Shown: positions 1,838 to 46,346 of the stretch, one piece after another
Layout of the letters: each line of letters opens with the position of its first letter
How positions within the stretch are numbered: the stretch's first letter is position 1
NCBI GenBank assembly: GCA_030654175.1
Contig: JAURXZ010000019.1
Location: forward strand, 124,001-188,000
DNA: 64,000 bases
Direction of reading: 5' to 3'
Source of the DNA: Bacteroidia bacterium
GTDB lineage: Bacteria; Bacteroidota; Bacteroidia; 2-12-FULL-35-15
The notes under the pieces: generated by a model
What the model saw: the letters and a program-made list of their open reading frames with translations, nothing else
Told to the model about the DNA's origin: nothing
Database searches by the model: none
Program-made: the position numbers and the translations under genes

Positions 1838-2452
1838 ATGGATTTATTGGTAAATTTTCCGGAAATAAAAAATGCATATTCGTATGTTGATTACAGGAAC
1901 CTGGTTACCGCTTATGCGGAGGGACGAAGCACTAGTGGAGTGGATCAGCTTTTGGAGCGAATTGAAGCCACGAAGTTGAATGCACATCGGATGAGGCGCA
2001 TTGATAAACAAATTGAGCTCAGCGATTCATTAAAGAAAATAATCCAAAACATTAACAGAAAAATAACCTTCATTGTTATTGCTGAATCATGGTGTGGAGA
2101 TGGAGCTCAGAATATCCCTATGATCGCAAAAGTTGCTGATATCAGCTCTAATATTGAATTGAAAATTATATTCCGGGATGAGAATATCGAAATAATGGAC
2201 GGTTATCTTACCAATGGCTCAAGATCTATTCCGAAGGTAATTTTTATTGATTCAGAAACAAACGAAGAATTGGGAACGTGGGGCCCACGACCTGCTAAAA
2301 TTCAGGAGATGGTAAAAGAATATAAGACACAATTTCCTGAAAGTTCACACGATGAGTTTGTGCGGAGCCTGCACCTTTGGTATGCTAAAGATATGGGGGA
2401 AGCATTGCAAAATGATTTTGAGAAACTTCTGACCCCATGGACTGTTTGTTAA
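1838..2452 (+). CDS. Thioredoxin-like protein (Thioredoxin_9 type)
   Basis: 204 residues, cytoplasmic, no signal peptide. The core carries VIAESWCGDGAQNIP at about residues 84-98, the position of the thioredoxin active site, but only the first cysteine is present: WCGDG where a classical thioredoxin has WCGPC. This one-cysteine WCGD motif is usual for the Thioredoxin_9 family, common in Bacteroidota. A cis-proline context (SRSIPKVIFID) follows, as in thioredoxin folds. With one cysteine it is unlikely to be a general disulfide reductase; bacillithiol-type monothiol chemistry or a nitrosothiol role is inference. It is preceded by a denitrification-type promoter and followed by a strong terminator, so it is probably monocistronic. 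Confidence 0.8.
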   Translation: MDLLVNFPEIKNAYSYVDYRNLVTAYAEGRSTSGVDQLLERIEATKLNAHRMRRIDKQIELSDSLKKIIQNINRKITFIVIAESWCGDGAQNIPMIAKVADISSNIELKIIFRDENIEIMDGYLTNGSRSIPKVIFIDSETNEELGTWGPRPAKIQEMVKEYKTQFPESSHDEFVRSLHLWYAKDMGEALQNDFEKLLTPWTVC

Positions 2453-2500
2453 TGCAATATATTGTTTGATTGAAATAGAAATAGACATAGACATAGAAGG

Positions 2501-2540
2501 AAACCCCGCTCAATTACAAGTTGAGCGGGGTTTTGTTTTA
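2501..2540. terminator. Strong bidirectional rho-independent terminator
   Basis: AAACCCCGCTCAA and TTGAGCGGGGTTT form a 13-bp perfect stem around a 7-nt loop, followed by a T-rich tract. It lies between the converging thioredoxin-like gene and the small minus-strand gene and can serve both. Confidence 0.9.
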
Positions 2541-2580: not shown

Positions 2581-2751
2581 TTAAATACTAACTACAACTG
2601 CTGCCAGCATACTTAGCCCACCAATAAAAGATAGGATAATCAGGGTAAGCCCAATTTTATAGAATCTCTTACTTTTTAAAATATCACCTTGTATCAGCAA
2701 ACCCATTGCAATTGAGGCGATCAGCCAAAACACTCCGAAAAGAATAACCAT
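2581..2751 (-). CDS. Small two-helix membrane protein, 56 residues, unknown function
   Basis: A short reading frame starting at the ATG complementary to 2749-2751 and ending at a TAA at 2581-2583. The product starts MVILFGVFWLIASIAMGLL, a first membrane helix, has a polar basic hinge (GDILKSKRFYK) and then a second helix (IGLTLIILSFIGGLSMLAAVVV). The hairpin architecture, alternating hydrophobic content and absence of internal stops support a real small membrane protein. A perfect TATTTTTG -7 element (minus strand, 2772-2779) and an ATGATGGGTATCAT palindrome at the same spacing as in the denitrification promoters lie immediately upstream, and a strong terminator lies downstream, so this is a complete, separately regulated unit. 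I do not recognise the family; it could be a small subunit or modulator of a respiratory complex. Confidence 0.75.
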   Translation of the reverse strand: MVILFGVFWLIASIAMGLLIQGDILKSKRFYKIGLTLIILSFIGGLSMLAAVVVSI

Positions 2752-2771
2752 TTTTATTTAAATTTATTTGA

Positions 2772-2815
2772 CAAAAATATTCTTGTTTTTACCAATATTT
2801 TATGATGGGTATCAT
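2772..2815 (-). promoter_or_regulatory. ATGA-N6-TCAT box plus -7 element for the small membrane protein
   Basis: ATGATGGGTATCAT at 2802-2815. On the minus strand a perfect TAnnTTTG element (TATTTTTG, 2779 to 2772) ends 36.5 bp from the box centre. On the plus strand no element sits at that distance, so the site points left toward the 56-residue gene, not right toward the RIC gene. Confidence 0.75.
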
Positions 2816-2913: not shown

Positions 2914-2957
2914 ATGACATACATCATATAATTACTTGATATATTCCTTCACCTTTG
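2914..2957 (+). promoter_or_regulatory. ATGA-N6-TCAT box plus -7 element upstream of RIC gene
   Basis: ATGACATACATCAT at 2914-2927 and CACCTTTG (7 of 8 bases of TAnnTTTG) at 2950-2957, spacing 36.5 bp from box centre. With the site at 2802 this makes a divergent pair of promoters, each with its own box. Confidence 0.8.
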
Positions 2958-3011: not shown

Positions 3012-3965
3012 ATGGAAACGCTAAACATTCTTGATGTTACCGTGCTAGAGCCCCGGTTAAAACATCCTACTATTTTTCAAAAATTTGACGAGCTTGAAAA
3101 AGGTGATGCATTTATTATTCACAATGATCATGATCCAAAACCACTTTACTACCAATTACTTGCTGAAAGAGGAAATGTGTTTACATGGGAGTACCAGGAA
3201 GAAGGGCCTGAATGGTGGAAAGTGCAGATCGGTAAGTTCAAAGAAGGGGAAAAGGAATCAACAATCGGTGATTTGGTTTCAAAAGATTTCCGCAAGGCGG
3301 AAGTGTTTAAAAAATTCGGGTTGGATTTTTGCTGTGGTGGAAAAAAAACATTGACCAAAGCTTGTAAAGAAAAAGGGCTTGATGTGGTGCAGATAGAAAA
3401 GGAATTGAAGGCGATTGATGAAATTTCATCAAAATCTTCTCAGGATTATAATACATGGGATCTTGATTTTCTTGCTGATTACATTTTGAATACTCACCAT
3501 AAATACGTGACACAGGCAATACCAGTGATCCAGGAGTATACACAAAAAGTGGCGAAGGTTCATGGTGAAAGACATCCGGAAGCAATAGAAATAGCAAATA
3601 ATTTTGTAAAAGTAGCAGATGAACTTCTTCGCCATATGGTAAAAGAAGAAAATGTGCTTTTTCCTTACATTAAAAAATTAGCTGCCGCGCAAAAGAACGG
3701 AACTATGGTGGAACCTCCGCATTTCGGATCAATTGAGAATCCTATAAATATGATGGAAGCTGAACACGAAGAGGTTGGAAACCTTATGGAGAAGATCAAT
3801 ATGTTGTCGTATGATTATACACCTCCTGCGGATGCATGTACTACTTTTCGTTTATCGTATGCGAAGCTGAAAGAGTTTGAAGATGATCTTCACCAACACA
3901 TTCATCTTGAAAATAACATTCTTTTTCCAAAAGCTATCGCTTTGGAGAATGATTTGTTTGAATAA
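3012..3965 (+). CDS. Iron-sulfur cluster repair di-iron protein RIC/ScdA with N-terminal DUF2249
   Basis: 317 residues, cytoplasmic. Residues 1-75 form a DUF2249 domain (DVTVLEPRLKHPTIF, IIHNDHDPKP). Residues about 80-125 are the ScdA N-terminal domain with its paired cysteines (LDFCCGGKKTL). The rest is a haemerythrin-like four-helix domain with histidine and glutamate ligands (ILNTHHKYV, LLRHMVKEENVLFPY, EAEHEEV, HQHIHLENNILFP). The RIC/YtfE/ScdA family repairs Fe-S clusters damaged by NO or oxidative stress and can release iron or process NO at its di-iron centre. The DUF2249 fusion is common in Bacteroidota. Its Crp/Fnr-type promoter and place among nor and nos genes fit nitrosative-stress defence. 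Confidence 0.92.
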   Translation: METLNILDVTVLEPRLKHPTIFQKFDELEKGDAFIIHNDHDPKPLYYQLLAERGNVFTWEYQEEGPEWWKVQIGKFKEGEKESTIGDLVSKDFRKAEVFKKFGLDFCCGGKKTLTKACKEKGLDVVQIEKELKAIDEISSKSSQDYNTWDLDFLADYILNTHHKYVTQAIPVIQEYTQKVAKVHGERHPEAIEIANNFVKVADELLRHMVKEENVLFPYIKKLAAAQKNGTMVEPPHFGSIENPINMMEAEHEEVGNLMEKINMLSYDYTPPADACTTFRLSYAKLKEFEDDLHQHIHLENNILFPKAIALENDLFE

Positions 3966-4945: not shown

Positions 4946-6220
4946 ATGCAAAATGCACTGACTCAAAAAGGGCCTTCTGCAGGTGTGGTTATCCCGCATT
5001 ATATTTGTGGAGCACTTTTTTTTGTGGTTCTTTGTTTTTTAATTCTCTTTTCATCAGATGCTTTTATCGGGCATTATTTCCATCCTAAATTATTGGCGAT
5101 AACACATATAGCTGCATTAGGATGGGGAACCATGATCATTTTTGGTGCTTTGTACCAGTTGTTACCTGTTATTCTTGAAACACCTCTTTATAACGAAACG
5201 CTTGCGAAAATAACTTTTGTCACTTTTACTGCAGGTGTAATTTGTCTGGCCTGGGCTTTTTGGAATTTTTATATCGGCATACACATTCAGATAGCAGCGA
5301 TATTACTTTTGTTATCATTTTCGCTTTTGTTGTTTAATGTTGTCATGACCGCCAACAAAGCTCCGAAATGGACCACGGAAGCTGATTTTATTGTTACTTC
5401 CGCTGTATGGCTTCTCCTTGCCGGATTGTTAGGCACACTGATGGCATTTAATTTTACTTACCCTTTATTAAGCAAATCGCATTTGTTGTTTCTAAAGATC
5501 CATGCTCATCTTGGAATTGCTGGGTGGTTCGTTTTGCTTATCATGGGTGTGGGATCAAAACTTATTCCAATGTTTTTATTATCTCACAACCTGAACACTA
5601 AAAAACTTAACTATGCCTATTATCTTGTTAATATGGGATTGATCGGGTTTTCTGCAGATCTTTTCTTTCGTGATGAAAAAGCTTTTTTACCGGTGTACGC
5701 AATGCTTATGGCAGCGGGAATTTTATTTTTTATTTCATTCCTTTACGAAGCTTACAAGAAAAGGGTGCGAAAACTATTGGATATAGGACTTAAACATTCA
5801 TTTGTGGCATTTCTGTTTTTTTTGCTTCCCATCCTTATCGGTATTGTCTTGAGTTTTAAGCCCTCTTTGAATGATAAATTCATGTTGCAGATTTATCTTG
5901 TTTACGGAGCATCCATTTTCTTTGGATTTTTCACTTCTCTGATATTAGGTCAGACATTCAAAACATTGCCTTTTATAATATGGATGCACCGGTATAGTAA
6001 AGTAGCCGGCCGTCAAAAAACAATGCTGCCTAAAGACCTTTATTCACAGATACTTGTGAAAGCACAATATATGGTCTATCTGGTTGCCTTGCCGGCATTA
6101 ATTGTGGGAATACTTCTTTCGTTATCGGTGATAATCAAAATGGGGGCAATACTTCTTCTTGCTACATCGGTTTTATACACTATAAATGTTTTAAAAATAG
6201 TAATGCACAATTATAAATAA
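4946..6220 (+). CDS. Polytopic haem-copper-oxidase-like/NnrS-like membrane protein
   Basis: 424 residues with about twelve hydrophobic helices. Histidines sit inside or at the ends of helices in the pattern expected of haem ligands: FHPKLLAITHIAALGWG in helix 2 and LLFLKIHAHLGIAGW near the middle. This resembles catalytic-subunit-like proteins related to NorB/CcoN and the NnrS family, which accompany denitrification genes and relieve NO stress. It lacks the full set of six invariant histidines I would need to call it an oxidase or NO reductase. It lies in an operon between the DUF2249 protein and a DUF59 protein, suggesting a role in NO-related metal or haem homeostasis. Confidence 0.6.
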   Translation: MQNALTQKGPSAGVVIPHYICGALFFVVLCFLILFSSDAFIGHYFHPKLLAITHIAALGWGTMIIFGALYQLLPVILETPLYNETLAKITFVTFTAGVICLAWAFWNFYIGIHIQIAAILLLLSFSLLLFNVVMTANKAPKWTTEADFIVTSAVWLLLAGLLGTLMAFNFTYPLLSKSHLLFLKIHAHLGIAGWFVLLIMGVGSKLIPMFLLSHNLNTKKLNYAYYLVNMGLIGFSADLFFRDEKAFLPVYAMLMAAGILFFISFLYEAYKKRVRKLLDIGLKHSFVAFLFFLLPILIGIVLSFKPSLNDKFMLQIYLVYGASIFFGFFTSLILGQTFKTLPFIIWMHRYSKVAGRQKTMLPKDLYSQILVKAQYMVYLVALPALIVGILLSLSVIIKMGAILLLATSVLYTINVLKIVMHNYK

Positions 6221-15259: not shown

Positions 15260-15267
15260 TAACTTTG
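15260..15267 (+). promoter_or_regulatory. -7 element TAACTTTG of the gene at 15280
   Basis: Perfect TAnnTTTG match 13 bp before the ATG, so the transcript would have a very short leader. Only a poor relative of the denitrification box (AGGACATAGATCAG at 15227-15240) lies upstream, at slightly wrong spacing. Confidence 0.6.
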
Positions 15268-15279
15268 CAAAAAAAAATT

Positions 15280-16506
15280 ATGGAGTCTACGGTTGGAAAG
15301 TGGTTAAGAATTACATTGGTTAATTTAGGTGTTGTTGCACTATTAGGTGTTACTTTGAGATATAAAATTGCCTTCTCTCTTCCTTTTATAGATCAACGAA
15401 ATTTGCATCATGGGCATTCACATTTTGCATTTGCAGGATGGATAAGTCAGGCTATAATGATTTTGTTTGTTTACTACTTATATAAAAATAAGCAAGAGGG
15501 TTTGGTTAAAAGATATAAATGGATATTATTTGCAAATCTTGTTGTTTCATATGGTATGCTTATTTCTTTTTCACTTCAGGGATATGCGTTTATTTCGATT
15601 TTATTTTCTACACTCTCTGTTTTTGTTTCCTATATTTTCGCAATACTTTTTTGGAAGGATTTAAATAAATTAAATTTAGATCGAAACTCACATTTGTGGT
15701 TTAAGGCATCTTTGCTTTTTAATGTCATATCTTCATTAGGTCCATTCTTTTTGGCTTTCATGAAGGCTAATCACATTATTGATCAAAAAAAATATTTAGT
15801 GGCTGAATATTTTTATCTGCATTTCCAATACAATGGGTGGTTTCTATTTGCGTGTATCGGCCTGTTTGTTTATAAACTGACTGAACTAATTGGTGAAGAA
15901 AAAAGTCTTAAAAACATTTTTTGGATTTTTGCCATAAGTTTTGTCCCTTGCTTTTTTCTATCTGCTCTTTGGCTTCCGATCCACAAAATAATTTATTTAC
16001 TTGTAGTCGTTGCAGCTATGCTGCAAATGGTTGGCTGGGTATGGCTTATCAGAATAGTACGCAAAAACATTTCAATACTTAAAAGCGAAATTAGTAAACC
16101 AGCTAAATGGTTGATGTCGTTGGCGGCAATATCAATGTCAATTAAATTAATTTTACAATTAGGTTCTACTTATCCCGCGCTCAGTCAGCTGGCTTTCGGT
16201 TTTCGCCCCATAATTATTGGGTACCTTCATTTAGTTTTTCTGGCATTGATCAGCGTTTTTATTTTGGGTTATATCATAGCAGAGAAGCTTATCGTAATTA
16301 ACCAGACTATAACTGTTGGAATAGTTATTTTTGTTTCCGGTATATTCATCAATGAAATACTTTTAATGTTTCAGGGCGTTTACGCCCTTGCAACAGAAAG
16401 ACTTCCTTATATAAATGAATTATTGTTGTTTGCCGCAATAATAATGTTTACAGGTATTTTCTTAATTGTTATCAAACAATTCTCATTTCAAAAAACAAAA
16501 TCTTGA
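15280..16506 (+). CDS. Polytopic membrane protein with haem-ligand-like histidines (haem-copper-oxidase-like)
   Basis: The start at ATG 15280 (MESTVGKWLRITLVNLG) is preferred over the TTG 15 bp upstream, which lies in the -7 element. About 408 residues with roughly twelve membrane helices. The second segment carries LHHGHSHFAFAGWISQ, a histidine cluster like the low-spin haem ligand region of NorB/CcoN-type subunits; further helix histidines occur in YFYLHFQYNGW, LPIHKIIYL and YLHLVFLAL. It resembles the gene at 4946 in architecture and is likely a distant haem-copper-oxidase relative. The canonical copper ligand set cannot be recognised, so no oxidase activity is claimed. It stands divergently from the nos operon. 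Confidence 0.55.
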   Translation: MESTVGKWLRITLVNLGVVALLGVTLRYKIAFSLPFIDQRNLHHGHSHFAFAGWISQAIMILFVYYLYKNKQEGLVKRYKWILFANLVVSYGMLISFSLQGYAFISILFSTLSVFVSYIFAILFWKDLNKLNLDRNSHLWFKASLLFNVISSLGPFFLAFMKANHIIDQKKYLVAEYFYLHFQYNGWFLFACIGLFVYKLTELIGEEKSLKNIFWIFAISFVPCFFLSALWLPIHKIIYLLVVVAAMLQMVGWVWLIRIVRKNISILKSEISKPAKWLMSLAAISMSIKLILQLGSTYPALSQLAFGFRPIIIGYLHLVFLALISVFILGYIIAEKLIVINQTITVGIVIFVSGIFINEILLMFQGVYALATERLPYINELLLFAAIIMFTGIFLIVIKQFSFQKTKS

Positions 16507-18769: not shown

Positions 18770-19498
18770 TTATTTTTGTTTTACTTTATCACCTGCTAAT
18801 TTCCTGAGGTTAGATTCATTGGGTATTATAAAATTTTTGCCATCTATTTTAATTATTTTTTTTGTTTCAAGTTGAGTTAGGTTCCTTATAACACTTTCAT
18901 AGGTGGTCCCTGCTATATTGGCAATATCCTTGCGGGAAAGAGTGTAATTGAGTTTGTGTTTTTCTTTTGGGTTATAACCAAAAGCATCAATCAACATACA
19001 AATGATTTTTGCCACTTTTGTTATCACCTCTCCATGAATCATGTGTTTCATTTGTTCTTCGGTTTTTCGTAATTCATCCGAAAAGAAAGTGATCAGAAAA
19101 AGGCTGAATTCAGGATTTGTTTTTATTAATTTTATGAAAAGGTCAATGGGGATAAAAGTAACTTCAGTGTCTGACAGCGCTATTGCGGAAATGGGGTAAT
19201 TTTTAGAGAACATACCTCTGTGACCAACCAGGGAGCCCTTGTTTGCTAATCGTAAAATTCGTTCATTGTTTTTATCAAAAGAGGAAACAACCTTTACCAT
19301 CCCTTTATTTATGAAGTATACTCCGGTTACTTTATCACCTTCGGTTATAAATCGCTGGTCTTTTTTGAAATTCTTTATTACTAAAAAGTTTTTCACCAAA
19401 AACATCCATTCATCCGAGCAATAACCCGACAAAAACCGTTCGAATTCATTTAAAGATCCTCCTTTTGTATTTTTACTATTTTCTACCTTCTTTATCAT
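18770..19498 (-). CDS. Crp/Fnr family transcription regulator
   Basis: 242 residues: cyclic-nucleotide-binding-like beta-barrel at about residues 35-150, long dimerisation helix, and C-terminal winged helix with ISR-like segment LSRKDIANIAGTTYESVIRNL at about 190-212. The recognition helix has the E-x3-R pattern (YESVIR). Unlike the regulators at 34901 and 35845 it has no N-terminal cysteine cluster: only one cysteine (GYCSDEW) is found there, so an Fe-S sensor is unlikely; a haem or other ligand is possible. It closes the long molybdenum cofactor block, 63 bp after moaCB, and could be the NO-responsive member. Confidence 0.9.
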   Translation of the reverse strand: MIKKVENSKNTKGGSLNEFERFLSGYCSDEWMFLVKNFLVIKNFKKDQRFITEGDKVTGVYFINKGMVKVVSSFDKNNERILRLANKGSLVGHRGMFSKNYPISAIALSDTEVTFIPIDLFIKLIKTNPEFSLFLITFFSDELRKTEEQMKHMIHGEVITKVAKIICMLIDAFGYNPKEKHKLNYTLSRKDIANIAGTTYESVIRNLTQLETKKIIKIDGKNFIIPNESNLRKLAGDKVKQK

Positions 19499-35776: not shown

Positions 35777-35820
35777 ATGACTCGTATCATATTTTAAAAT
35801 TTTCCCTTCTAATATCTTTG
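35777..35820 (+). promoter_or_regulatory. ATGA-N6-TCAT box plus perfect -7 element upstream of regulator-norCB operon
   Basis: ATGACTCGTATCAT at 35777-35790 and TATCTTTG, a perfect TAnnTTTG, at 35813-35820; spacing 36.5 bp. Predicted start near 35825, a 20-nt leader. Confidence 0.82.
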
Positions 35821-35844
35821 TTGTGCTAAAATAATAATTTGAAA

Positions 35845-36582
35845 ATGAATATTGCCAGGAATATTATTGCTTTTTCAGAAGATTCGATAGGTTGTGGAAA
35901 TTGTTGGCTCAATAATTTTGCAGCTAATGAAAATTGTTCATCAGAGTTCCTTAATAAAATTCTTTTGAACAAAGAGGAGAAAAATTATAGCAAAGGAGCG
36001 TACTTGATTAAAAGTGGCGTTCTTGTGTCGGGTGTTTATTGTATTCAAAAAGGTACTGTGAAAGTTTTTAAAAAGGGAATTAAAAATAAGGATTTTATAC
36101 TATGGGTTGCTCGTAAGGGCGATATTATTGGCTTGAATTCTTTTATTAATGATGAAGTATATTCATTTTCTGCGTCTGCATTGGAGGAAACTTCTGCTTG
36201 TTTTATTCCATCTTCTGATTTGAAAATTCTTCTTAGCAAAAAGCCTGTTGCTTTTGTTAAATTAATGGGAAATGTTTGCGATAAATTGAATTTTGTTGAA
36301 CAACGTATCACCAGTATCTCAAAAAAAACTATAAAAGAACAATTTGCAGAAATACTAATTACCATATCGCGGAACAATTCTGAAAGTGATAAAAATTTAG
36401 TTATTAATTATTCTGTTAAGGACCTGGCAAGCTTTGTAGGTACTACTAAAAATTATCTTTATAAAATTTTGGTGGAGTTTACTGATCAGAAAATACTCTC
36501 CGTTAATAACCGAAAGTTTGCGATCAGTAACATGAATGCACTTTCATTGATTGCCGCAGGAGAAAATAAATTACCTAAATAG
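35845..36582 (+). CDS. Crp/Fnr-family regulator co-transcribed with norCB
   Basis: Start at ATG 35845 (MNIARNIIAF); a TTG 6 bp upstream is less likely. 245 residues. The N-terminus has cysteines spaced CxxC-x10-C (GCGNCW...NENC) and another in the barrel (VYCIQKG), so an Fe-S sensor is possible. The winged helix (VKDLASFVGTTKNYLYKIL) lacks the E-x3-R pair of the other two regulators: the equivalent positions are K-N..K. It should therefore read another DNA sequence or bind weakly. Ten bp separate its stop from norC, so it is expressed with the NO reductase and is probably an NO or redox sensor. Confidence 0.88.
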   Translation: MNIARNIIAFSEDSIGCGNCWLNNFAANENCSSEFLNKILLNKEEKNYSKGAYLIKSGVLVSGVYCIQKGTVKVFKKGIKNKDFILWVARKGDIIGLNSFINDEVYSFSASALEETSACFIPSSDLKILLSKKPVAFVKLMGNVCDKLNFVEQRITSISKKTIKEQFAEILITISRNNSESDKNLVINYSVKDLASFVGTTKNYLYKILVEFTDQKILSVNNRKFAISNMNALSLIAAGENKLPK

Positions 36583-36592
36583 ATTTTATATT

Positions 36593-37018
36593 ATGTCCAC
36601 AAAATTAAAGCGTTTTGTTTTCTGGGGTTTGTTTTTCTTATTTATAATATATGGTTTTTTCATCTATACTTTAGGTACTGAAAATGATGGAGGAAAAAGA
36701 TTCTTAACCGAAGAAGCAAAAAGAGGGAAATTATTATTTCAGGAATACAATTGTACTTCTTGTCATCAGTTGTATGGACTGGGAGGTTATATGGGGCCGG
36801 ATCTTACTAATGTTATTTCCGATCCGGGAAAAGGAGAATCCTACGTGAAAAGTTTTATTAAAAACGGGACTCCTCAGATGCCAAATTTTCATCTTAGTGA
36901 AACGGATGTGAATGCGCTCACAGAATACCTCAATTATGTTGATAAAACAGGCATTTCTCCTGTAAGAAATTTTGAAATACGGTATGACGGAACCATTATG
37001 CAAAAAGCGATTCAATGA
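36593..37018 (+). CDS. norC: Nitric oxide reductase cytochrome c subunit NorC
   Basis: Start at ATG 36593 (MSTKLKRFVFWG); the frame open from 36551 overlaps the regulator. 141 residues. One N-terminal membrane helix (FVFWGLFFLFIIYGFFIYTLG) holds a periplasmic haem domain with CTSCH at residues 54-58 and an axial methionine in TPQMPNFHL. NorC brings electrons to NorB. It overlaps norB by 4 bp (ATGA). Confidence 0.95.
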   Translation: MSTKLKRFVFWGLFFLFIIYGFFIYTLGTENDGGKRFLTEEAKRGKLLFQEYNCTSCHQLYGLGGYMGPDLTNVISDPGKGESYVKSFIKNGTPQMPNFHLSETDVNALTEYLNYVDKTGISPVRNFEIRYDGTIMQKAIQ

Positions 37019-38343
37019 AAAAAGAGGTTGGGGTATTTTTTATTTTTCTTTCTATTGTGGCTTTGTTAGCCGGGATGCTTTTTGGTAGTCTAAGTGCTTT
37101 CCAATTTGTTTTCCCGGGCTTCTTCGATCTATTACCTTTTTTTAAAAACAGGCCTCTTCATGTTTCATTGGTTGTTTCATGGATATTTCTGAGTGCAATT
37201 GGTGGGATCTATTATTATCTTCCTAAATATTGTAATCTACCGTTATTTTCAAGAAAGATGGCTGTAATACATATATGGCTTTTCATTGTTACCGGATTGC
37301 TTATTCTTACATGTTATTTGTTCGGGAAATTTGGTGGTCGTGAATATTGGGAATTTCCTGCTATTTTGGCTATTCCCATATTTATTTCATGGGTTTTGTT
37401 TGCATTTAATTATTTTAAAACTGTATTTAAAAAAATCGGTCAATGGCCTGTATACCTTTGGATGTGGGCTACGGGGATATGTTTCTTTTTATTCACTTTC
37501 ACCGAATCGTATTTATGGGTATTCCCTTATTTTAGAGATAATCTTATACGTGATCTTACTGTTCAATGGAAAGCTTATGGAGCATTAACGGGGTCCTGGA
37601 ATATGTTGGTATATGGTACTGCTATTTTTGTAATGGAGCGTATTAAAGGCGATGAAACTGTTGCTAAATCTAAATTAGCATTTTGGATGTACTTTTTAGG
37701 TCTTACCAACTTGCTGTTCGGATGGGCTCATCACATTTATATAGTACCCACAGTACCTTGGATAAGATACCTGGCGTATGCTATCAGCATGACAGAATTG
37801 TTGATACTTTCTAAAATTATTTGGAACTGGAAAAGCTCACTTGAACAAGCAAAAAAGGATTATTATTTTTTGCCTTTTCGTTTTCTTGTTGCATCCGATG
37901 TTTGGATATTTTTAAATTTAATACTTGCTATTTTAATTTCTATTCCTGCTGTTAATGTTTATACTCATGGTACCCATATTACTGTTGCGCATGCTATGGG
38001 AAGCGCCATTGGTATCAATACTATGATCTTGTTATCATCCGTATTATTTATTATTAATGATGTTACAAAATTTAATTTCCCTAAAATTCAAAAAAATATT
38101 ATTCGGGCAGGATTTTGGATCACAAATATTTCTCTTCTTACTTTTTTAACCTTCCTGACCATTGCCGGAGCTGAGAAAGGGATTTTAGTGATTGAAAATA
38201 AACTTTCATTCCGCGCAATTATGCAAGAGATATCTCCTTATCTGATATCTTTTGCCTGGTCAGGTTTAGGTATTTTTATTGGTTTGATAATGACAACTCT
38301 TCCTCCACTGATTGCAATGTTTCAATACTTAAAGAAGAAATAA
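37015..38343 (+). CDS. norB: Nitric oxide reductase catalytic subunit NorB
   Basis: 442 residues with about twelve membrane helices. Family features: RPLHVSLVVSW (low-spin haem histidine), WGATGICFFLFTFTESYLW-like region with glutamates, NMLVYGTAIF, WAHHIYIVP (paired histidines at the metal centre) and HGTHITVAHAMGSAIGIN (ligands for haems b and b3). It reduces two NO to N2O in the inner membrane with electrons from NorC. It is a cNor-type protein, without the N-terminal extension of quinol-dependent qNor. Confidence 0.95.
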   Translation: MKKEVGVFFIFLSIVALLAGMLFGSLSAFQFVFPGFFDLLPFFKNRPLHVSLVVSWIFLSAIGGIYYYLPKYCNLPLFSRKMAVIHIWLFIVTGLLILTCYLFGKFGGREYWEFPAILAIPIFISWVLFAFNYFKTVFKKIGQWPVYLWMWATGICFFLFTFTESYLWVFPYFRDNLIRDLTVQWKAYGALTGSWNMLVYGTAIFVMERIKGDETVAKSKLAFWMYFLGLTNLLFGWAHHIYIVPTVPWIRYLAYAISMTELLILSKIIWNWKSSLEQAKKDYYFLPFRFLVASDVWIFLNLILAILISIPAVNVYTHGTHITVAHAMGSAIGINTMILLSSVLFIINDVTKFNFPKIQKNIIRAGFWITNISLLTFLTFLTIAGAEKGILVIENKLSFRAIMQEISPYLISFAWSGLGIFIGLIMTTLPPLIAMFQYLKKK

Positions 38344-38390: not shown

Positions 38391-39587
38391 ATGTCAAATT
38401 CAGGAGTTTCATTTGAAAATACAGAAAAGGCCTTTATTGCAAAAGGCAATCAGGAGCTGAAGCATTCACTCTGGCTCTTTAAGCTAATGGGCAACCCTAC
38501 ACTTGTAAAAGTGTTTTCAAAGCTTATTCTTTTCGCAATAAAAATTGGCCTGCCAGTAAGTTTACCGATTAAGCTAACCATATTTAAACAATTTTGTGGT
38601 GGGGAATCTATTGAAGAAAGCAAAAAAGTTGTGTATAAACTCAATGTATCAAATATAGGTTCTATCCTTGATTATTCTGTTGAAGGTAAAGAAAACGAAA
38701 TCGATTTTTGTAATACAAAAGATGAAATTTTACGAATTATAAAAGTGGCAGAAGACAACCCTGCAATACCATATACTAGTCTTAAGCTTACAGGGATTGC
38801 TCGTTTATCTTTACTTGAAAAATTGAATTCTAAACAACAATTAAATAAGGAAGATGAAATTGAATTTCAAAAAGTTAAAGGGCGGCTCGTTGAGATTTGT
38901 AATAGTGCTTCCAACTCCACTGTTCCCATTTATTTTGATGCTGAGGAAAGTTGGATTCAGAATGCTATTGATACTTTAGCGGAAGAAATGATGGAGATTA
39001 ATAATAAAAGAACTGCTATTGTGCTTACCACTCTTCAGATGTATCGTTGGGATCGGATTGAATATCTTAAGAGACTGATAAAAAATGCAAGGGATAGAAA
39101 TTTCAGCATTGGTATTAAACTGGTTCGTGGAGCTTATATGGAAAAGGAAAATCTCCGAGCTTCACAATTTGGATATAAATCACCCATACAACCAAGCAAA
39201 GAAAATACAGATAGTGACTTTGATAAAGCTGTGGATATCTGTCTTGAAAATATTGATATTGTTACATTATGCGCTGGTACACACAATGAGGCGAGTACAA
39301 TGCACCTGGTTAATAAAATGGGCGAACTAAAGATTCCCAATGATCATCCGCATGTTTATTTTTCACAGCTCTATGGTATGAGCGATCATATTACTTATAA
39401 TTTGGCCGATGCTGGTTATAATGTTACTAAATACCTTCCTTATGGTCCTGTTAAATCAGTTATGCCTTATTTGATCCGCAGGGCTGAAGAAAACACTGGT
39501 ATTTCAGGTCAGATGGGAAGAGAGTTAAGATTGATAGTTGAGGAAAAGAACCGAAGACAAAGTTCAAAATTACTTTCCGCTGGTTAA
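38391..39587 (+). CDS. Proline dehydrogenase family flavoprotein
   Basis: 398 residues, TIM barrel. Diagnostic motifs: YFDAEESWIQ at about residue 180, GIKLVRGAYMEKE at about 240-252, CAGTHNEAS, and the C-terminal FAD motif YLPYGPV..MPYLIRRAEEN at about 340-360. The enzyme oxidises proline to pyrroline-5-carboxylate and feeds electrons to quinone. It follows norB by 47 bp and may be read through from the nor operon, but no direct link to NO reduction is known. The N-terminal about 80 residues are helical, usual for Bacteroidota members. Confidence 0.9.
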   Translation: MSNSGVSFENTEKAFIAKGNQELKHSLWLFKLMGNPTLVKVFSKLILFAIKIGLPVSLPIKLTIFKQFCGGESIEESKKVVYKLNVSNIGSILDYSVEGKENEIDFCNTKDEILRIIKVAEDNPAIPYTSLKLTGIARLSLLEKLNSKQQLNKEDEIEFQKVKGRLVEICNSASNSTVPIYFDAEESWIQNAIDTLAEEMMEINNKRTAIVLTTLQMYRWDRIEYLKRLIKNARDRNFSIGIKLVRGAYMEKENLRASQFGYKSPIQPSKENTDSDFDKAVDICLENIDIVTLCAGTHNEASTMHLVNKMGELKIPNDHPHVYFSQLYGMSDHITYNLADAGYNVTKYLPYGPVKSVMPYLIRRAEENTGISGQMGRELRLIVEEKNRRQSSKLLSAG

Positions 39588-44428: not shown

Positions 44429-44471
44429 ATGATTTCCATCATATTTTTCTGTGACCTTCCTTGTACCTTTG
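44429..44471 (+). promoter_or_regulatory. ATGA-N6-TCAT box plus perfect -7 element upstream of the 604-residue protein
   Basis: ATGATTTCCATCAT at 44429-44442 and TACCTTTG, a perfect TAnnTTTG, at 44464-44471; spacing 35.5 bp. Leader about 55 nt. Confidence 0.78.
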
Positions 44472-44531: not shown

Positions 44532-46346
44532 ATGAATAATACATCAGAACATACTTTTCATATTCCGGTAATGGGATTGGGGTATACAATCGACACACCG
44601 GTAAAAGTTGCCCGATTTGGAATATCCTCCGTGGTTTCAATAATACAGGACGTATTGGTGGAACAAATGCGTGAGTTTTATTGTAAAAAAGCGGGAGAAG
44701 AATATATCCATATTCCAATGGATGATATTGATCACCGTGCGAAACGGGTTACAGCTTACCTTGATTTAATTCAGAATATTGTAGATAAACAAGTTGAAGA
44801 ACTTAAAAAACAACCTTTTGAAGAAGCGAATGATATTGTAAAATATTTCAGACTGCTTCCTGATAGTTCTCCGGTTAAACAACTTTATTTAGAAATGACA
44901 AAGTTGACCGGAGAAGCTAAGGAGCTTTGTCAAATAGAATTGCGAAGTAAAATTATTGCAGGAGCCATTGATGTTAATATCATGACGAAGATTGACAATC
45001 AGAATTATTCAAAAAAGAATGAGCTTCTTCCAATGGAATATTCCGATGCACTTTCTGCATTTCGCGGATTTGCCAACAGCACACTTTCATCCTCCATTGT
45101 TTTTTCTGCAGGCTTGAACCCTCGATTATTCGCTTATCTCGAAAGCTTTAAAGATTTCTTTCCTGACGCGGAAGGAACCATTAAAAAGAAAATTATTCTG
45201 AAGGTGAGTGATTACCGCTCAGCACTTATACAAGGAAAGTTTCTGGCAAAAAAAGGCGTGTGGATCTCTGAGTTCCGTATCGAGTCGGGCTTAAATTGTG
45301 GTGGACATGCGTTCCCTACTGAAGGTTATTTGCTTGGACCTATCTTGGAAGAATTTAAGAATAAAAAAGAAGAACTCACTTCCGAACTGCTTACAATTTG
45401 TAATCGCGGACTTGAAGAAAAAAAATATAAAACGTTGCCACCTGAAACTGAAATTCGTATCAGCGTTCAGGGTGGGATAGGAACTGCGCAAGAAGATGTT
45501 TTTTTAAGAGAGTATTACAATGTGGAGGCTACCGGTTGGGGAAGCCCATTTTTACTGGTTCCTGAGGCTACAAATGTGGATGATAAAACATTACAATTGC
45601 TTGCTAACGCAAAAAAAGAAGATTATTTTTTGAGTCATGCTTCACCACTTGGAATTCCATTTAATAATTTCAGAAAAAGTTCTTCTGAAGATCAGCGCAA
45701 GACCCGTATAGAAAAATTGCGGGCAGGAAGTCCGTGTTACAAAAAATATCTTTCTTTCAATACTGAATTCACTGAAAAGCCAATATGTACTTCTTCGCGG
45801 GAATATCAAAATCTGAAATTGAAGGAGTTGACCAACCTTAATTTACCAAAGGCACAATTTGAAAGAAGATTTGATGAGATCACTGAAAAAGATTGTCTTT
45901 GTGAAGGCTTGTCTTCCACAGTGCTTTTAAAGAACAACATTCCGGACCATCATCGTTTGGAAGCAGTTACTATTTGCCCCGGACCAAATCTTGCCTATTT
46001 CTCAAAAACATTTTCTCTTGAGGAAATGGTTGACCATGTATATGGCCGATTAAATGCGCTCAATGCATTGAACAGATCACACATGTTTATTAATGAACTT
46101 AAAATGTATATTGATTACCTGAAAGCTGAAGTGGATAAGAATTTTAATTCATTGACAGATAAGCAAACAAAATATTTTTCCTCTTTCAAATCTAATCTTT
46201 TACAGGGGATAGAATATTATAAGCAGCTCATTCCAAATATGGCAAATGAAGCAGAGGATTTTAAAAATAAAATGGCCGATGAGATCGAAACCATGAAAAA
46301 TAATCTGACCAACTTTTATTTTGCTGATGGAATAAAAACAGTATAG
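44532..46346 (+). CDS. Uncharacterised 604-residue protein with FMN-barrel-like features
   Basis: No signal peptide, cytoplasmic. The N-terminus (VMGLGYTIDTPVKVARFGISSVVSI) and the middle (RIESGLNCGGHAFPTEGYLLGP at about 255-276 and ISVQGGIGTAQEDVFL at about 315-330, then EATGWGSPFLLVPEA) resemble the substrate- and phosphate-binding loops of FMN TIM-barrel enzymes such as nitronate monooxygenase and the glutamate synthase domain. A later cysteine group (KDCLCEGLSS and TICPGPNLAYF at about 455-495) could bind an Fe-S cluster. The last about 100 residues are helical and charged. I do not recognise a characterised family. A perfect denitrification-type promoter and position beside the propeller lipoprotein suggest a reductase or nitro-compound enzyme used in anoxia; this is inference. 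Confidence 0.6.
   Translation: MNNTSEHTFHIPVMGLGYTIDTPVKVARFGISSVVSIIQDVLVEQMREFYCKKAGEEYIHIPMDDIDHRAKRVTAYLDLIQNIVDKQVEELKKQPFEEANDIVKYFRLLPDSSPVKQLYLEMTKLTGEAKELCQIELRSKIIAGAIDVNIMTKIDNQNYSKKNELLPMEYSDALSAFRGFANSTLSSSIVFSAGLNPRLFAYLESFKDFFPDAEGTIKKKIILKVSDYRSALIQGKFLAKKGVWISEFRIESGLNCGGHAFPTEGYLLGPILEEFKNKKEELTSELLTICNRGLEEKKYKTLPPETEIRISVQGGIGTAQEDVFLREYYNVEATGWGSPFLLVPEATNVDDKTLQLLANAKKEDYFLSHASPLGIPFNNFRKSSSEDQRKTRIEKLRAGSPCYKKYLSFNTEFTEKPICTSSREYQNLKLKELTNLNLPKAQFERRFDEITEKDCLCEGLSSTVLLKNNIPDHHRLEAVTICPGPNLAYFSKTFSLEEMVDHVYGRLNALNALNRSHMFINELKMYIDYLKAEVDKNFNSLTDKQTKYFSSFKSNLLQGIEYYKQLIPNMANEAEDFKNKMADEIETMKNNLTNFYFADGIKTV

Follow-up and report, generated by a model that had tools for sequence, protein, structure and literature searches.

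A conserved 56-codon gene of a nitrate-breathing Bacteroidota bacterium encodes a predicted hairpin membrane protein

Is a short frame next to the RIC gene of a nitrate-breathing Bacteroidota bacterium a genuine gene, and what might its product do? The frame lies at 2581-2751 on the minus strand of the window, that is, the whole 64-kb stretch of DNA that was analysed (Table 1). It starts with ATG, encodes the protein MVILFGVFWLIASIAMGLLIQGDILKSKRFYKIGLTLIILSFIGGLSMLAAVVVSI and is present as a single copy in the genome. The usual gene-caller minimum is below 56 aa. The protein contains two hydrophobic stretches linked by QGDILKSKRFYK, and AlphaFold2, with 17 relatives in the alignment, modelled it as two helices (residues 2-21 and 28-55, mean pLDDT 75). 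This agrees with the initial annotation, which had described two membrane helices joined by a basic hinge. When the 559-bp intergenic region was shuffled 2000 times with its dinucleotides preserved, 8 of the shuffled sequences contained a frame of 56 aa or more with two hydrophobic stretches. Thus, the frame by itself is no proof of a gene.

Table 1. Positions of the small gene, its promoter elements and the related genes in the window
Feature	Position	Strand	Remarks
Small hairpin membrane protein, 56 aa	2581..2751	-	Frame kept in 19 genomes; under purifying selection
Predicted membrane helix 1, residues 2-21	2689..2748	-	AlphaFold2
Predicted membrane helix 2, residues 28-55	2587..2670	-	Carries conserved G34, I38, S41, G45
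Bacteroidota -7 promoter element TATTTTTG	2772..2779	-	Consensus TANNTTTG
FNR/DNR-type box ATGATACCCATCAT	2802..2815	-	Centre at -41.5 of predicted transcription start
Second box ATGACATACATCAT	2914..2927	+	Serves divergent RIC gene
RIC -7-like element CACCTTTG	2950..2957	+	One mismatch; same spacing from RIC box
RIC di-iron Fe-S repair protein, DUF2249-ScdA_N-hemerythrin	3012..3965	+	Divergent; TIGR03652, E 1.4e-75
Thioredoxin-like protein (Thioredoxin_9, Trx9)	1838..2452	+	Convergent neighbour
Hairpin between convergent Trx9 and small gene	2500..2534	.	T-run favours plus-strand gene
NorC-like cytochrome c	36551..37018	+	Homologue in operon ending with small gene in f41, f7
NorB-like protein	37015..38343	+	P. 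aeruginosa NorB is its nearest solved structure
Proline dehydrogenase (ProDH)	38391..39587	+	Homologue directly precedes small gene in f41, f7

A search of 59 genomes with the single sequence gave relatives in 3 others, with 39-51% identity, and all of them were divergent from RIC. Furthermore, a four-member profile gave matches in 21 of the 395 genomes of the class. Two were spurious and were discarded, since one sits inside a 394-aa frame (G081) and the other is a 47-aa frame (G265). An NO/denitrification neighbourhood was found around 18 of the 19 short-frame profile matches. The context-confirmed set consists of these 18 genomes from the sequence-only profile and one more (G260) from a norB-neighbourhood scan, making 19 with the window genome included, and it spans 7 bacterial families. 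The homologue search beside RIC and denitrification genes, which the initial annotation had proposed, thus returned a frame conserved in 18 other genomes. A pattern scan of the genome contigs gave three loci, all matching genomes already in the set. Meanwhile, a phylum-wide search with a broad 17-member profile returned only the window's own copy, but this absence is weak, because few of the denitrifiers found earlier are among the sampled genomes and only 16 candidates were scored per genome. As the genome searches score limited candidates, absences in them are soft. No relative of the small protein was found in the plasmid and viral collections, and the tree of the small protein is mostly unresolved owing to its short length.

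The remaining profile match (G033, 33.9 bits) is a sequence relative on a long branch and outside any NO context, and it serves as a counter-example; searches of its genome gave no RIC and no NorB-like match. The G033 copy (L035 6326-6496, minus strand) has no box and adjoins genes resembling those of sulfate assimilation and ksgA.

The small frame is under purifying selection at the amino-acid level. In two close pairs, dN/dS (NG86) was about 0.09, namely 0.093 for G040/G122 (dN 0.069, dS 0.745) and 0.088 for G038/G120 (dN 0.067, dS 0.762). The substitutions at the three codon positions were 8/2/17 and 3/3/21, with an excess at third positions. When the same changes were placed at random, they produced about 17 amino acid changes on average versus the 8 observed, and none of the 5000 trials gave so few. 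The initial annotation had named substitutions free of coding constraint as evidence against a gene; the pattern found is therefore the opposite one. Judged by this conservation, the 56-codon frame is a genuine conserved gene of the bacterium.

The upstream region was said to carry a perfect -7 element and an ATGA-N6-TCAT box, and both TATTTTTG and ATGATACCCATCAT are present exactly. In addition, the window contains 12 copies of ATGAYNNNNRTCAT, versus 0.53 expected. Position -12 in Flavobacterium is occupied by the first T of TANNTTTG (PMC6847099). Thus, the ATGAY-N4-RTCAT box would be centred at -41.5 relative to TAnnTTTG. This is the class II activator position of CRP/FNR-type regulators, and the case for the promoter is stronger than claimed, since the spacing is also kept in six relatives. 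With up to one mismatch allowed per element, the distance from the box to the -7 element is 29 in the window and in G027, G040, G122, G093 and G050, and 30 in G012; all six relatives are therefore within 1 bp, and one of them is at another locus. The two f4 genomes (G038 and G120) have the box without this spacing, and the spacing was not found in G033 or in the copies linked to hyp604 and MoaA. On the RIC side there is a further box and a -7-like element at equal spacing, so the small gene and RIC are likely to have two back-to-back promoters of one regulon.

The palindromic box at -41.5 and the CRP/FNR-type regulator genes in the window (at 18770, 34874 and 35839), which are candidates for binding it, resemble FNR/DNR/NNR-type regulons. 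However, the E. coli FNR site is TTGAT-N4-ATCAA, which differs from the core of the small-gene box. Together, the neighbourhoods and the conserved promoter architecture support the proposed membership of the small gene in the denitrification/NO regulon. The regulator genes themselves appear, from their upstream sequence, to belong to their own regulon. One box (35777-35790, plus strand) with a -7 element at equal spacing is upstream of the CRP/FNR-type gene at 35839. Another box at 44429, with a -7 element at nearly equal spacing, is upstream of a gene (44532-46346, plus strand) for a 604-aa protein, which gave no Pfam match and is linked to NrdJ in several genomes.

The initial annotation also placed a strong terminator after the small gene. 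A hairpin does exist and is common to both convergent genes, but its T-run is on the Trx9 side, and on the minus strand the hairpin is followed by CCTTCTATGT.

The gene neighbourhoods vary among the 19 genomes. The small gene is divergent from RIC in nine (the window genome, G012, G038, G120, G211, G040, G122, G071 and G093). In five others, from the two families f41 and f7 (G041, G233, G260, G349 and G404), it ends a norC-norB-proDH operon, about 5-20 bp after ProDH. Thus, it is within the norCB operon in 5/19 genomes and elsewhere in the same regulon in the others. An NrdJ-hyp604 pair is upstream of it in two genomes (G305 and G282), and the last three copies adjoin Trx9 (G050), MoaA (G034) and a radical-SAM gene (G027). 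G027 has the most similar NorB-like gene (85%); no small frame was found at its site between Trx9 and RIC, and its relative adjoins a gene homologous to the radical-SAM gene at 696-1736 of the window.

A RIC homologue was present in all 19 genomes, and a nitric oxide reductase (NOR) gene in 17. The latter is NorB-like in 16 and a qNOR in G040, where the qNOR (PDB 3ayf, E 1.7e-153) is in the same cluster as the small gene and stands in for the NorB-like gene. Neither a NorB-like nor a qNOR match was found in G282 or in G122, the genome of which is 85% complete and fragmented. NorB-like genes occurred in 15 of 18 small-gene genomes versus 85 of 395 overall (Fisher p = 1.6e-8), and RIC, found in 147 of 395 genomes, was associated with the small gene over the 18 survey positives (Fisher p = 9e-9); both values overstate the evidence, because the genomes are related and this was left uncorrected. 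About 70 of the 85 NorB-like genomes had no detectable small gene. In addition, Trx9 was found in 15 of the 19 genomes, NosZ in 14, a COX1-like 424-aa protein in 13 and a COX1-like 413-aa protein in 11; these four were rejected as strict partners, since they are missing from 4-8 genomes. The gene after norB in other lineages was also considered as a functional stand-in and rejected: the products are mostly soluble and of various types, and the profile matched none of them. As no one partner gene accompanies the small gene in every genome and also adjoins it each time, the suggested role in tuning a respiratory complex is one that we infer. Two further divergent COX1-like membrane proteins are encoded in the same region (4946-6220 and 15265-16506, both plus strand), and the 424-aa COX1-like protein gave no PDB match.

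No credible match was found in Pfam, NCBIfam or PDB for any of 17 members, nor in Rfam for the small-gene region. Weak matches in the three protein collections (MARVEL, NuoM, EGFR helix and others) were discarded as composition-driven and inconsistent between members. By these searches, the small hairpin proteins are a so far unnamed Bacteroidota family without a curated model. CydX/CydH/CcoQ-type subunits are tiny membrane proteins encoded with the terminal oxidases that they stabilise. The small gene likewise encodes a tiny membrane protein among respiratory enzyme genes; however, those subunits are mostly single helices and not hairpins, they show no sequence match, and the partner is here a candidate only. 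The closest analogue in role is NorF, a small membrane protein encoded with norCB in norEFCBQD clusters. However, NorF is about 90 aa and belongs to the COX4_pro family; COX4_pro matched no member, and hhalign against one NorF sequence found no profile similarity. The function of NorF is unknown (PMC13036017), and it is dispensable for heterologous cNOR expression (PMC9976466).

The best reading of these data is that the small hairpin family is activated by an FNR/DNR-type regulator and assists membrane NO reduction or respiration. The small protein thus probably helps the NO respiration or defence machinery of the cell. Its expression would start with nitrate or nitrite respiration or when NO accumulates. 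By the positive-inside rule, it would insert into the inner membrane with its basic hinge facing inwards and both termini outwards, and the conserved glycine/serine face of the helix might pack onto a larger protein of the membrane. For this partner, the nitric oxide reductase would be the likeliest candidate, either cNOR-like NorCB or the qNOR in its place, and the small protein may aid its assembly or stability as an accessory subunit, in a role like that of small membrane proteins in other respiratory enzymes. Its hairpin form, together with the norCB-proDH operon, points to a membrane NO-reducing complex as the best single guess, and we hold this accessory-subunit role as a tentative leading proposal. 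Two points were counted against it: the small gene most often has RIC, and not NOR, as its neighbour, and the operon context varies between lineages. A narrower form of the proposal, in which an uncatalogued accessory subunit of Bacteroidota NORs completes or stabilises an unusual complex whose NorB is without the FeB ligands His207/Glu211 and the low-spin heme His, seems doubtful.

A role in NO or anoxic respiration in general ranks close behind the membrane NO-reducing complex. The protein could be induced by NO or anoxia and have no dedicated complex, for instance guarding the bilayer, the quinone pool or several respiratory enzymes. This is a reasonable possibility, given that the contexts vary (RIC, norCB-proDH, NrdJ-hyp604, MoaA and radical SAM) and that regulation is retained where the locus has moved (in G027 the box is at -57 from ATG, with the usual spacing), but the conserved helix-2 motif and, in f41/f7, the tight placement after ProDH point to a specific contact. 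The small protein could also be a membrane anchor or partner for RIC or the products of its operon (a DUF1858-DUF2249 protein and the COX1-like 424-aa protein), as the divergent arrangement and the constant presence of RIC would suggest. We consider this unlikely: RIC is a soluble protein, it is common and mostly occurs without the small gene, the two are apart in f41/f7, and the 424-aa protein is missing from six of the 19 genomes.

Two other explanations concern the nature of the frame itself. Size and hydrophobicity would fit a short hydrophobic toxin or peptide, of the sort seen in type I toxin-antitoxin systems, that the regulon had captured. However, the lack of an RNA family match at the region, the single copy, the activator promoter of its own, the conserved synteny and the absence from the plasmid and viral collections searched make it very improbable. 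An open frame that arose by chance in the regulatory region between the genes has in its favour the short length and the comparable frames in shuffled sequence; against it are the identity among homologues, synteny across families, the low dN/dS and the third-position excess. It is already refuted by the substitution pattern, and its probability is negligible.

Bacteroidota are abundant N2O- and NO-reducing bacteria, but the membrane components that serve their NO metabolism are ill-defined. A co-regulated and conserved family of small membrane proteins without a curated model offers a concrete gene for deletion and tagging. In addition, with a model of the family, annotation pipelines could identify a pathway component that is missing so far.

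The NorB-like protein of the window is, by its sequence, a non-canonical NOR-like enzyme. Together with 45 homologues (L031-L044 and L106-L145), it keeps the equivalents of His60, His258, His259, Glu280 and His347 of P. aeruginosa NorB. All 46 aligned sequences are without His207 and Glu211 (the FeB ligands), and Met replaces the low-spin heme ligand His349. Furthermore, proline dehydrogenase directly follows norCB here and in many relatives, which is unexpected in an NO gene set. Upstream of norC in L041, L043, L044 and L106, there are 460-aa proteins, often in tandem, that resemble tryptophanase/tyrosine phenol-lyase by eye.
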